Part shown: positions 7,868-11,328 of the stretch, piece by piece
Layout: every line of letters begins with the position of its first letter
How positions within the stretch are numbered: the stretch's first letter is position 1
NCBI GenBank assembly: GCA_031263435.1
Contig: JAISFT010000250.1
Coordinates: 1-11,328 of the forward strand
Reading direction: 5' to 3'
DNA: 11,328 nucleotides
Source: Treponema sp.
GTDB taxonomy: Bacteria; Spirochaetota; Spirochaetia; Treponematales; Breznakiellaceae
Made by a program: the position numbers and the translations under genes
The notes under the pieces: generated by a model
Told to the model about the DNA's origin: nothing
The model's database searches: none
What the model saw: only the letters and a program-made list of their open reading frames with translations

Positions 7868-7907
7868 GTTCCGCTACCCCCCAGCCCGATTGATCCGCCC
7901 CTTTAGT

Positions 7908-9263
7908 ATGGCACACAGCAGACCCAAAACAGCGCCGGGCACCACATGGAATTTTTGCAGGTCGGAAGCATTTTACCTCCTCTCCTTTTTTGCCGTCCTC
8001 ATAATCATCGGGACCATCTTGCTCGTGCTGCCCGGCGCGGACGCGGAAAGCGCAGGGATAAAACTTGTTGACGCGGCGTTTACCGCCACCAGCGCGATCT
8101 GCGTTACCGGACTTACCACCCTTCCCCTGTCGTCGTTCAGCCCGTATGGACAGATGATCATTCTGTGCCTGGTACAGATCGGGGCCCTCGGCATCATCAG
8201 CTTTACGTCGATCCTCGTCGTCATGCCGGGACACCGGTTTTCCATCGGCTCAAGGAACACAATACAGGGCCTGTATCTCAACGGGATTGAATACAACCCG
8301 CGCAGAATCATCCGCAGCATCGTGCTGCTTACCCTGACCATCGAGGCAGCCGGCGTTTTTTTTCTGGTCCTGATCTTCAAAAACGCCGGGCTCGATCATC
8401 CGGTCTACGCGGGCCTCTTTCACGGGATCTCCGCCTTCTGCAACGCGGGAATGTCGCTGTACGACGACAGCCTTATCGGGTTTCGGGACAACAACCTGCT
8501 CATCATCGTTTTCGGCGCGCTCATCGCCGCGGGCAGCGCGGGCTTTCTCGTGCTGCACGACATGTTCCGCGTCCTGACCGGGAAAAAAAGAAAACTCAGC
8601 TACCACAGCCTTGTCGTCATAGGAATGTCCCTTGTGCTATCCGCGGGCGGCGGCATCTTTTATTTTATCCTTGAATCGAATCATGTGTACCGGGGGCTCG
8701 ATCTGTGGACAAAACTGAACAACGCGATCTTTCACGCAATTACCGCGCGTACCGCCGGCTTCCAGGCCGCGCCGCTGACAGAGTTTACCGGCCCCTCACG
8801 GCTGCTCACCGGTATCCTCATGTTTATCGGCGGCGCTCCGGGTTCGGTTTCCGGCGGAGTAAAAGTAACCACGATCTTTGTCATCGCCGCGGTCATGCTG
8901 CGCAGGCCCGATTCCCAAGGCGATATCCGGATACGCCATCACCGGCTGTCCGCCGGAACCATCAACCGTGCGGTAAGCTATTTTTTGAAGGCCCTTTTCC
9001 TGCTTTTTCTCTGCGTCTTCGCGCTTTCCCTTACGGAACGGCACAGCACCGCATCGTTTGAACAGATCGTGTTCGAAACCGTATCCGCGTTTGCGACCGC
9101 GGGTCTGACGCTGGATTATACCCCCCTGCTAACGGGCGCAGGAAAAGTCGTCGTCATCGCCGCGATGTTTGCCGGGCGGGTCGGACTTGTCGCTCTGGCC
9201 TTTCCTCCCGTGCGGCATAAAAACTATGCTATAACCTACAGCGAAGGAGAATTGCTGATATGA
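7908..9263 (+). CDS. ktrB: Potassium uptake channel subunit, KtrB/TrkH family
   Basis: This is the membrane pore of a Ktr/Trk-type K+ transporter. The 451-residue protein has the four membrane-pore-membrane repeats of the superfamily. Pore loops with the filter glycine are TSAICVTGL (61-69), SAFCNAGMS (175-183), ITARTAGF (278-285) and SAFATAGL (393-400). GAPGSVSGGVKVTT (309-322) is the intramembrane gating-loop region after the third pore. Lack of the two extra N-terminal helices of E. coli TrkH makes it KtrB-like. ATG 7908 is preferred over an in-frame TTG 18 nt upstream; neither has a strong ribosome site. It lies after a terminator with no clear promoter visible. The last codons overlap ktrA, so the two subunits are translationally coupled. 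Arg and Gly codons look less CGG/GGG-heavy by eye than in thrA. Confidence 0.93.
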   Translation: MAHSRPKTAPGTTWNFCRSEAFYLLSFFAVLIIIGTILLVLPGADAESAGIKLVDAAFTATSAICVTGLTTLPLSSFSPYGQMIILCLVQIGALGIISFTSILVVMPGHRFSIGSRNTIQGLYLNGIEYNPRRIIRSIVLLTLTIEAAGVFFLVLIFKNAGLDHPVYAGLFHGISAFCNAGMSLYDDSLIGFRDNNLLIIVFGALIAAGSAGFLVLHDMFRVLTGKKRKLSYHSLVVIGMSLVLSAGGGIFYFILESNHVYRGLDLWTKLNNAIFHAITARTAGFQAAPLTEFTGPSRLLTGILMFIGGAPGSVSGGVKVTTIFVIAAVMLRRPDSQGDIRIRHHRLSAGTINRAVSYFLKALFLLFLCVFALSLTERHSTASFEQIVFETVSAFATAGLTLDYTPLLTGAGKVVVIAAMFAGRVGLVALAFPPVRHKNYAITYSEGELLI

Positions 9264-9982
9264 AACAGGTGGCGATCCTCGGTCTGTCCCATTTTGGAAT
9301 AAGCGTTCTTGAAGAACTGGTCCGCCTTAATGTCGAAGTGTTCATCATGGACAAGAACCGCGAGCGTATCGATCAGTACAAGGATATGGCCGCAGGTTCG
9401 GTCATCATCGACGTCCTGAACGTAGAAAACCTGCGCAAGGTACTGCCCGATTCGACCGACGCGGTGGTCATCGACATGGGAGACAGCATCGAAGCGTCCA
9501 TCCTTGCGGCAAGTTACTGCGCAAAGCTGCACATCAAGACCATCATCGTAAAGGCGGAAACCGAATCCCACGGCGAAATCCTCGAACTTGTCGGCGCAAC
9601 CCAGGTGGTATTCCCGAACAAAGAGGCGGCCAAAAGGGTAAGCCCCCTCCTCCTGTCGTCGGTACTGTTAAATTACCTGCCGGTAAGCGGCAAGCTGGTC
9701 ATAGCCGAACTGGCCATCCCCGATTCGATGATAGGAAAGACCATTATGCAGGTAGAGCTGCGCAAAAAACACGGTCTTAATCTGATTTCCGTCCGCACCG
9801 AAGACGAAGAATTTGACGAATTCAAACCCTCCCACATCTTCCAAAAGGGCGACATCGGCCTCTTTTCCGGCGCCGATGAAGCCCTCGGCGCGTTTTCCGG
9901 CTCCATCGTCAAAGAACAAAAACACGAAGCCCTCCAGTCGCAGGTTTTCAAACTCTTCCACAGAGAAAAGAAAAGCCCCTGA
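9260..9982 (+). CDS. ktrA: Potassium uptake regulatory subunit, single-RCK KtrA/TrkA family
   Basis: This cytosolic gating subunit binds nucleotides and controls the KtrB pore. It has 240 residues: an RCK-N Rossmann domain (about 1-120) with VAILGLSHFG at 4-13 and the ribose-contacting Asp31 (FIMDKN), then an RCK-C domain (about 135-218) and a charged tail. One RCK unit matches KtrA, not the two-unit E. coli TrkA. The usual GLGRFG loop here reads GLSHFG, with serine for the second glycine. ATG overlaps the ktrB stop (ATGA), with AAGGAG at 9244-9249, 10 nt upstream. Codons from Ala149 to the stop are repeated at 10646-10924 beyond a toxin-antitoxin module. This upstream copy remains a complete gene. 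Confidence 0.93.
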   Translation: MKQVAILGLSHFGISVLEELVRLNVEVFIMDKNRERIDQYKDMAAGSVIIDVLNVENLRKVLPDSTDAVVIDMGDSIEASILAASYCAKLHIKTIIVKAETESHGEILELVGATQVVFPNKEAAKRVSPLLLSSVLLNYLPVSGKLVIAELAIPDSMIGKTIMQVELRKKHGLNLISVRTEDEEFDEFKPSHIFQKGDIGLFSGADEALGAFSGSIVKEQKHEALQSQVFKLFHREKKSP

Positions 9983-10010
9983 CAGCGACATGCCCGGCCC
10001 GGCGGAACAC
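9703..10010 (+). repeat. 308-bp direct repeat, copy 1 (ktrA 3' end)
   Basis: This segment covers the last 92 codons of ktrA, the stop and 28 nt beyond. It recurs at 10645-10952 at a fixed offset of 942 bp with no indels. Eight substitutions fall in the coding part and four just after the stop. The match begins at AGCCGAACTGG and ends at GGCGGAACAC. Confidence 0.95.
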
Positions 10011-10036
10011 GTTGTTCTAAGGGGAAATAGCTCGGT

Positions 10037-10234
10037 TTACGCCCTCCGGGGGCTGGTATAGGTGGGGGCAGGGGCTTGCCGGGGGGTGGATTTTGGGGCC
10101 TGATCCGGCTTCCGGATGAGGCACATTTTGTCAAATTCCCGCATTCTGGCATCGTCAATTATTCCTAATTGGTGCATACCTTCGGCGTCCTGGTGTACAA
10201 TCATCGAAATTTCGCTCTGATATTTCTTTTCCAC
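10037..10234 (-). CDS. Short antitoxin-like protein, second gene of toxin-antitoxin pair
   Basis: This is probably the antitoxin that binds and neutralises the RelE/HigB-like protein encoded just upstream. The 65-residue product contains KYQSEISMIVHQDAEGMHQL and DARMREFDKMCL, the N-terminal pattern found in antitoxins paired with this toxin family. After that point it is Pro/Arg-rich (PKSTPRQAPAPTYTSPRRA) with no helix-turn-helix, so it is either a short-form antitoxin or has lost its DNA-binding half; no HTH was found in the other frames. GTG 10234 is chosen because GAGGAG (10246-10241) lies 6 nt upstream. ATG 10240 directly abuts that site, which is too close. The ribosome site overlaps the toxin stop, so the genes are coupled. 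It converges with ktrA. Confidence 0.65.
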   Translation of the reverse strand: MEKKYQSEISMIVHQDAEGMHQLGIIDDARMREFDKMCLIRKPDQAPKSTPRQAPAPTYTSPRRA

Positions 10235-10244
10235 GTTCATCTCC

Positions 10245-10610
10245 TCAGTTTATCTCATTCCAATGGCCTGCTTTAATACGGTTTTTTAGCTGCTCATCAG
10301 TCATGCCTATATTTTCTTTGGCCATTTCCTTAAATCTCTTCAGATCTTTCCCGCTAACATTTGCCCTGGCCGATTTCGCAAATCCGTATACATAAAACGT
10401 CCGCTCTCCGCTCCTGAAAAACACGATGATCCGGTATCCTCCTGCCTTGCCTCTCCCCGGACGGGCTGCCCGCACCTTGTAGACACCGCCACCCAGATCG
10501 GCATCCGCCTGGCCCGCCTCAAGCCGGTTGACCATACCCAGCAGTTCGCCGTCTGTAATACCCTCTTTCGCGGCAAAGCGGGTAAACCACGAGTTTTTGA
10601 ATACCCTCAC
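10245..10610 (-). CDS. RelE/HigB-like toxin of a type II toxin-antitoxin system
   Basis: Proteins of this group (RelE/ParE superfamily, COG4737-like) are expected to cut mRNA on the ribosome. The 121-residue product has the core of the fold: DADLGGGVYKVRAARPGRGK (36-55), GGYRIIVFFRSGERTFYVYGFAKS (57-80) and a helical C-terminus (KRFKEMAKENIGMTDEQLKN). Basic residues in the ARPGRGK loop and Tyr59/Arg60 are candidates for RNA contact. It appears full length and intact. The only plausible start is GTG 10610, since an in-frame TAA is directly upstream, and there is no Shine-Dalgarno before it, consistent with a leaderless transcript. Toxin-first order resembles higBA. The pair lies between the two copies of the ktrA 3' repeat, so it was probably acquired or moved with that segment. 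Confidence 0.85.
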   Translation of the reverse strand: MRVFKNSWFTRFAAKEGITDGELLGMVNRLEAGQADADLGGGVYKVRAARPGRGKAGGYRIIVFFRSGERTFYVYGFAKSARANVSGKDLKRFKEMAKENIGMTDEQLKNRIKAGHWNEIN

Positions 10611-10616
10611 TTATGA

Positions 10617-10645
10617 AGGATAACCGGAAATGACAGACTTTTCAA
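10617..10645 (-). promoter_or_regulatory. Possible leaderless promoter of the toxin-antitoxin pair
   Basis: TTGAAA (10645-10640) and TATCCT (10622-10617) are 17 nt apart on the minus strand. The predicted start coincides with the toxin's GTG at 10610. The -35 box ends exactly at the repeat boundary (10645). The -10 match is only fair. Confidence 0.3.
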
Positions 10646-10952
10646 GCCGAACTGGCCATCCCCGATTCGATGATAGGCAAGACCATTATGCAGGTAGAAC
10701 TGCGCAAAAAACACGGTCTTAATCTGATTTCCGTCCGCACCGAAGACGAAGAATTTGACGAATTCAAACCCTCACACATCTTCCAAAAGGGCGACATCGG
10801 CCTCTTTTCCGGCGCCGATGAAGCCCTCGGCGTGTTCGCCGGCTCCATCGTTAAAGAACAAAAACACGAAGCCCTCCAGTTGCAGGTTTTCAAACTCTTC
10901 CACAGAGAAAAGAAAAGCCCCTGACGGCGGACTGCCCGGCCCGGCGGAACAC
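10645..10952 (+). repeat. 308-bp direct repeat, copy 2
   Basis: This is the second copy of 9703-10010, with no indels. Homology starts at AGCCGAACTGG and stops after GGCGGAACAC. The upstream flank (TTTTCA) and downstream flank (AGGTTCAG) are unrelated to those of copy 1. Confidence 0.95.
10646..10924 (+). pseudogene. ktrA: Duplicated ktrA 3' fragment (RCK-C domain only)
   Basis: The fragment encodes ktrA residues 149-240 in frame to the stop. It has no start of its own: an in-frame TGA lies at 10631-10633, and the first internal ATG (10670) lacks a ribosome site. Compared with the intact gene it carries A211V, S213A and S227L and five silent changes (codons 159, 166, 191, 212, 217), with no frameshift or stop. 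Such a pattern suggests it diverged while part of a working gene, then was joined here. Expression is unlikely, though an isolated RCK-C domain could in principle bind a partner or ligand. Confidence 0.85.
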
Positions 10953-10994: not shown

Positions 10995-11328
10995 TTAGTT
11001 TTTAATGTCGGCTATTGTCAGACCGGTGGCCTGGAGAATGATGTCCCCCGCGACCCCGGCTTTTAGCAGATTCCGCGCCACTTTTGCTTCGGTCGCCGCC
11101 GCTTTTGCCCTGGCCTCCGCCGCTTCCGCCTTGGCCTTCGCTATTTCCACCTCGGCCTCCATCCTCAGTTTATCAAACCGGGTCAGAATCCTTTCATCTA
11201 CCATCGTCTTCGCCTCCCTAAACCCTTCATAGGGCTTATACAACTCCGTATATAGTACCTCTTGGGCTGGATTCCTGGACGAGGCGTTTGAAGATGAGGT
11301 CGAAGAGGTGATGGGTTTTGTGTCCGGG
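10995..11328 (-). pseudogene. Broken Rpn-family (PD-(D/E)XK nuclease / putative transposase) gene
   Basis: Two fragments in different frames are seen. From the window edge to the stop at 11236, one frame reads HKTHHLFDLIFKRLVQESSP, resembling the N-terminal start of Rpn-type proteins. Another frame, down to the stop at 10995-10997, reads LYKPYEGFREAKTMVDERIL, then an alanine/glutamate/lysine-rich coiled coil (EIAKAKAEAAEARAKAAATE) and VARNLLKAGVAGDIILQATG, the typical Rpn C-terminus. The middle, where the nuclease residues would lie, is missing: the family is usually around 300 residues, here about 110 remain. The junction is near 11255-11265. A TTG at 11243 opens the second frame but is unlikely to be a real start. 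The N-terminal assignment is less certain than the C-terminal one, and the 5' end lies outside the window. Confidence 0.6.

Follow-up and report, generated by a model that had tools for sequence, protein, structure and literature searches.

The window, by which we mean the whole 11,328-bp stretch of DNA analysed, contains an intact ktrA gene (9260..9982, plus strand) encoding a 240-residue K+ uptake regulatory subunit with TrkA_N and TrkA_C domains, the best solved relatives of which are KtrA/KtrC chains. Its start is overlapped by the gene for a TrkH/KtrB-type K+ channel subunit (7890..9263, plus strand; PF02386 TrkH, E 4e-46); the features expected of a KtrA, i.e. both RCK N and C domains and an adjoining TrkH/KtrB-type gene, are present. 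The closest relatives of ktrA come from Treponema / Spirochaetaceae MAGs, the nearest being L013, with 94% protein identity over residues 1-171 only, followed by L001-L003, with 86-88% protein identity. Genomes of such spirochaetes are probably of insect-gut origin, and Breznakiella homolactica (L008, genome G008) was included among the 195 family genomes searched around G013, the genome of L013. Comparison of L001-L003 with the window reveals no DNA match past 9961, so they do not place the native downstream side of ktrA, and a DNA search of 190 genomes with positions 9983-10110, run without a positive control, gave zero matches. In L013 / L017 (G013:C130) the contig stops inside ktrA, approximately 70 bp past the position at which the window repeat begins; this stop could reflect duplication there too.

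Repeats and toxin-antitoxin pair at the ktrA 3' end

The sole long direct repeat of the window (a reference copy of 300 nt at 96% in the initial scan, the runner-up family being of 40 nt at 70%) is formed by the end of ktrA. Its two plus-strand copies, 9703..10010 and 10645..10952, are each 308 bp long, start 942 bp apart and are 96.1% identical, with 12 mismatches and zero indels. Copy 1 comprises ktrA from codon 149 to the stop plus 28 nt, with codon 149 coinciding with the start of the Pfam TrkA_C match (149-212); because the repeated segment extends beyond the stop codon, ktrA stays whole. Copy 2, which is defined by the repeat scan, by alignment and by a counterpart in another protein, P0003 (described below), is a ktrA 3' end without the N-terminal domain. 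Between the copies lies a 634-bp insert (10011..10644), which holds a toxin-antitoxin (TA) pair. The initial annotation had described this arrangement, a TA segment that follows ktrA and is bracketed by duplicates of the gene end, and alignment recovered its exact coordinates; its count of eight coding differences between the copies, five of them silent, agrees with our site-by-site listing, and its remark that no integrase is visible holds for the insert, the only recognised genes of which are the TA pair. Two 308-bp copies of this similarity could also recombine, as had been proposed; the 942-bp unit might in principle loop out through them, and the toxin might select against its loss.

A promoter-like site (10617..10645, minus strand) lies directly upstream of the toxin gene at the insert edge; it is a consensus match only, one of two such matches in the region versus 0.8 expected. 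Beside copy 2, an 82-aa ORF (10995-11243, minus strand), possibly a broken gene, is similar to the C-terminal region of Rpn-type nuclease/transposase proteins (TIGR01784, E 2e-5, under the curated cut-off). Elsewhere in the window, an inverted repeat of 37 nt, 89% complementary and with its arms 100 nt apart, occurs at 416-452 / 553-589.

The toxin gene (10245..10610, minus strand) encodes a 121-residue RelE/HigB-2-like protein, which matches PF06296 RelE over its full length (residues 1-120 on profile positions 1-120, E 9e-42) and HigB-2 chains in the PDB (5ja8) over residues 40-89 (E 8e-6). The antitoxin gene (10037..10240, minus strand) comes straight after it on the same strand, which is the type II TA order. 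Its 67-residue product matched no family in a scan of Pfam and NCBIfam and has no C-terminal helix-turn-helix, a motif that the same scan detects, as HTH_3, in L091 and L097. Its N-terminus is homologous to those of the full-length plasmid antitoxins L015 and L016, which are annotated as DNA-binding regulators and extend into a helix-turn-helix-like tail. A census was made of the first 60 spirochaete loci (L062-L121), with the 20 later loci excluded; in six no antitoxin was found and in two a contig end truncates it, so that the census comprises 52 complete antitoxins, 49 of which are short (52-89 aa from the match) and three of which have a helix-turn-helix, the classes being sorted by length and motif and HTH_3 being confirmed by Pfam in L091 and L097.

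A related toxin is that of the HigB2/HigA2 pair of Vibrio cholerae (PMC8438204; PDB 5ja8). In that pair the N-terminal segment of HigA2 is its main toxin-binding part, as it may be in the window antitoxin, and a peptide spanning residues 3-23 of HigA2 has very high affinity for HigB2 (PMC8438204), whereas HigA2 differs in having its own C-terminal helix-turn-helix for dimerisation and DNA binding. Since the HigA2 peptide binds so tightly, the short antitoxin could still neutralise its toxin despite the missing helix-turn-helix; autoregulation by the short antitoxin itself would be lost. With the helix-turn-helix generally absent here but present in some homologues, it must be asked how these operons are controlled. 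The antitoxin of the PaaA2-containing TA module reportedly also has no DNA-binding domain, but a separate regulator is said to be present there, whereas none was identified here, where no systematic search for one was made. That module belongs to E. coli O157:H7, in which it lies within a cryptic prophage (PMC8630535).

Relationship of the two ktrA ends

Copy 2 has an open frame of up to 84 residues (10670-10924). An in-frame stop at 10631, the lack of a ribosome site before 10670 as judged by eye, and the frameshifted state of its P0003 counterpart make it unlikely that copy 2 is expressed as a free RCK C-domain; on these features of the sequence, it is probably an unexpressed relic. P0003 itself (102 aa, JGI) was found by protein search with copy 2 and derives from a 2,814-bp contig. 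P0005, found by the antitoxin search and 90% identical, likewise derives from a contig of 2,814 bp, and the equal lengths suggest that the two proteins are encoded on one contig. P0003 starts with MTDFSSRT, which corresponds to the window read from 10630, i.e. 15 insert-end bases followed by copy 2. As judged from the protein, approximately 50 bases are lost after this joint, the KtrA frame is regained for 62 residues and the end lies 22 residues beyond the expected stop; the frame changes and the deletion imply that copy 2 is decaying in that lineage. The recurrence in P0003 of the joint between insert and copy 2 also implies that the joint was not created by the assembly of a single contig; the insertion/duplication event is probably old, predating the split from the P0003 lineage. 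A comparison over 60 residues gives three differences between copy 1 and copy 2, and nine between either copy and P0003. As copy 2 is no nearer to P0003 than to copy 1, we infer that either ktrA and copy 2 have undergone gene conversion, in one lineage or in both, or the insertion took place twice, to the exact base.

The coding differences between the copies were polarised against L001-L003 throughout, and against L013 over the first 70 bp only. Four derived changes are placed on copy 1, comprising three that are silent (9757, 9832 and 9895, the last being weakly placed, with L002 carrying the copy 1 base) and one from Ala to Ser (9896). Three are placed on copy 2, comprising one that is silent (10852) and two that alter the protein, from Ala to Val (10833) and from Ser to Leu (10881); the silent difference at 9736 is ambiguous in its placement. 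Over the 70 bp covered by L013, both copies are equidistant from it, with six differences each. The initial annotation had proposed that copy 2 was shaped by selection elsewhere, a proposal at odds with the observation that three of the four changes of copy 1 are silent, whereas two of the three changes of copy 2 alter the protein. This polarity fits copy 1 as the live gene, and copy 2 looks to be under relaxed constraint, although three changes are few.

The proposal belonged to a wider reading, in which a segment from a related strain, carrying the TA pair and a ktrA 3' end, recombined into ktrA by a single crossover or by homology-assisted joining, such that the copies were already different when they met. 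This would account for adjacent copies that nevertheless differ at 12 of 308 sites, and the map is that expected if a circle bearing the ktrA end together with the TA pair had integrated by a single crossover. Most of the placed silent changes, however, are on the resident gene. Moreover, in a tree of ktrA 3' ends with 13 rows (L013 is omitted, being too short there, and the outer branches are weak) the two copies are sisters at 98/98, the very grouping that the initial annotation had named as the sign of local duplication and which argues against a foreign donor. The expected donor allele did not appear either, there being no better match in 14 ktrA loci or in the best 120 of 273 KtrA proteins (best 89%), a comparison comprising no close strains. 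Finally, the P0003 lineage has the identical joint but a copy 2 that differs at 9 of 60 residues. Given these observations, we consider recombination with a related strain to be unlikely.

Flanking repeats at related loci

The toxin is present in 53 of 190 family genomes (E <= 1e-15), and an order-wide sample gave 53 of 390 genomes (E <= 1e-12), all of them already met in the family search. The TA pair nearest to that of the window (L043, in G071), with 85% DNA identity over 10097-10625, lies between other genes, with no ktrA, implying that the module occupies different sites. We fetched 60 TA loci and then 20 more, the 80 being most, but not all, of roughly 90 listed places, along with 20 control regions. 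To score as positive, a locus had to have direct repeats of 30 bp or more, at 85% or more, with a copy within 800 bp on each side, and loci with less than 300 bp on one side (7 of the 60 and 8 of the 20) were untestable. TA pairs lie between direct repeats at 15 of the 65 testable loci (12/53 in the first set and 3/12 in the further set). The 12/53 compares with 14/627 for control spans in unrelated regions, from 4 of 20 regions (Fisher p 6e-8), and with 5/174 for spans away from the TA pair in the same loci, from 3 of 52 loci (Fisher p 2e-5), the p values being rough because the control spans overlap and are not independent. The repeat-TA-repeat layout is clearly enriched.

Reading each of the 15 positives individually, we assigned about five to duplicated host sequence, seven to TA-derived sequence and three to dispersed repeats or hairpins. 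The host sequences are the terminal 50 nt of a PF00701 dapA-family gene with 33 further nt (L102, 83 bp), the last 43 nt of an alpha/beta-hydrolase gene with following sequence (L088, 91 bp), the 3' end of a 332-aa BspA-type leucine-rich-repeat ORF (L079, 104 bp), part of a small HTH ORF (L074, 46 bp) and the start side of a 596-aa alpha-amylase-domain ORF (L177, 52 bp), the toxin frame being broken in the last case. No third copy of the L102, L079, L074 or L177 repeats was found in their own genomes, and about half of the L088 repeat, its second half, is a dispersed element. At 2457-2499 of L088 (G013), a sequence of approximately 43 bp has matches at dozens of G013 places among the matches listed. 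The hydrolase gene of L088 has a counterpart in G091, and the dapA-family gene of L102 has one in G174; in both, the gene end is single and the flank examined, which for G091 is 305 bp past the match, has no match to the TA pair. The downstream DNA of both is unalignable, so they are not clean empty sites.

The TA-derived repeats, recognised by eye as antitoxin tails, toxin promoters and arrays, are those of L085, L090, L103, L113, L114, L118 and L167. The repeat of L110 is dispersed, as is that of L168, which occurs at six places in its own genome, and the 32-bp repeat of L067 is of unsure class, appearing by eye to be a hairpin yet having only two genome copies. Because several have another identity (antitoxin tails or TA promoters, hairpins, dispersed repeats), the flanking repeats are not duplicated gene ends in general, and enrichment of the host-duplication class by itself is suggestive, at 5/53 as counted with L067 included (p 0.056 versus same-locus spans) and 4/53 without it. 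TA places are in excess near contig ends (19/85 within 500 bp versus 7.6 expected), implying that assemblies probably hide the youngest cases, in which the repeats are identical. Separately, we observed a tandem toxin/antitoxin array with near-identical stretches between its copies in L041 / L085 (G010:C106) and, in one of the control regions (L133, 11161-12636), a HigA-like gene and, by eye, a short toxin-like ORF, with direct repeats of approximately 90 bp around them.

Origin of the insert and comparison with known systems

The explanation that we favour, and which we consider probable, is insertion of the TA module with local duplication of its target, followed by decay of copy 2 and perhaps by gene conversion. 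A HigB-2-like TA module would have inserted at the ktrA 3' end and would now be flanked on either side by the last 308 bp of its target, resembling a target duplication but of unusual length. Copy 1 would keep ktrA whole, copy 2 would be a non-functional relic, and gene conversion afterwards may have kept both copies alike in the window lineage. A single event would then have produced both the duplication and the insertion, and an intact target would favour the survival of such events at gene ends. The map, the sister relationship of the copies among the sequences compared, the polarity of changes and the recurrence of the layout in related genomes support this explanation. Against it count the repeat lengths, which range from 46 to 308 bp, and the variable insert ends, such that no enzyme signature is visible, as well as the nature of the other positives, 7 of 15 being relics of TA arrays or promoters and 3 being dispersed or hairpin, with 4 of 20 control regions also holding such repeats. 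It also has a cost, in that, with copy 2 not being closer to P0003, conversion or an independent insertion at the same base must be assumed.

An identical map would result from tandem duplication of a unit comprising the ktrA end and a TA pair already located downstream, with the second TA pair then being deleted and with no insertion into ktrA. In these genomes it is common to find TA arrays in which antitoxin tails or promoters have been left behind (L085, L090, L103, L113, L114 and L118), which implies that duplication followed by partial deletion does occur. However, two events are required, there is no remnant of a second TA pair after copy 2 in the window, and L102 and L079 have host ends on both sides with no second TA pair; for the ktrA locus we find this route improbable. 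Much less credible still is an assembly chimera of two strains' ktrA genes. The window is an entire contig, and the number of TA loci near contig ends (19/85 versus 7.6 expected) implies that assembly around them is hard, but a separate JGI contig encodes a protein with the joint between insert and copy 2, and no extended sequence is common to the two sides at the joint. An integron cassette (no attC core pair GTTRRRY/RYYYAAC in 9903-10700 on either strand), an IS or transposon (longest inverted match between the insert ends 7 nt, and no transposase in the insert), integration of the tRNA type (no tRNA genes in the window) and a phage origin (no toxin relative confirmed in viral contigs, and zero exact matches in a search with a 28-base repeat-start pattern) were rejected.

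To our knowledge, the route by which small TA modules without a transposase reach new chromosomal sites is poorly understood. Extending insertion with target duplication beyond ktrA, a compact TA module, its antitoxin devoid of a DNA-binding domain, might spread without a transposase in this spirochaete family, leaving long and variable target duplications mostly at gene ends; the module would land without gene breakage, and the repeats would then exchange with the live gene. We hold this broader form to be doubtful. Modules of the same kind between duplicated pieces of different host genes nonetheless represent datable events with testable joints.

There are integrative elements that target the 3' end of a gene and restore that end on insertion; the insert at ktrA resembles them, and site-specific integrative elements as a type, in being flanked by direct repeats with a duplicated gene 3' end. 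It differs in that no integrase or recombinase lies inside it. In addition, the genes targeted, among them ktrA, a dapA-family gene and a hydrolase gene, bear no relation to one another, and the repeats are not of one length. Among the matches listed in searches of the open-licence literature, we found none that reports a TA module flanked by duplicated ends of host genes and none on the TA systems of termite treponemes. A TA pair between long direct repeats after a host gene is already known in Microcystis (PMC7935541). In that case, Microcystis aeruginosa PCC 7806 has a TA pair beside MaOC1 that is fenced by 152-bp direct repeats, the likeness to the window extending to a two-gene module, a RelE/ParE-like toxin, a position straight after the host gene and long repeats on both sides. 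The Microcystis repeats are identical, begin 14 bp past the stop codon and carry inverted repeats (PMC7935541), whereas those of the window comprise the coding 3' end of the host gene itself and have diverged.
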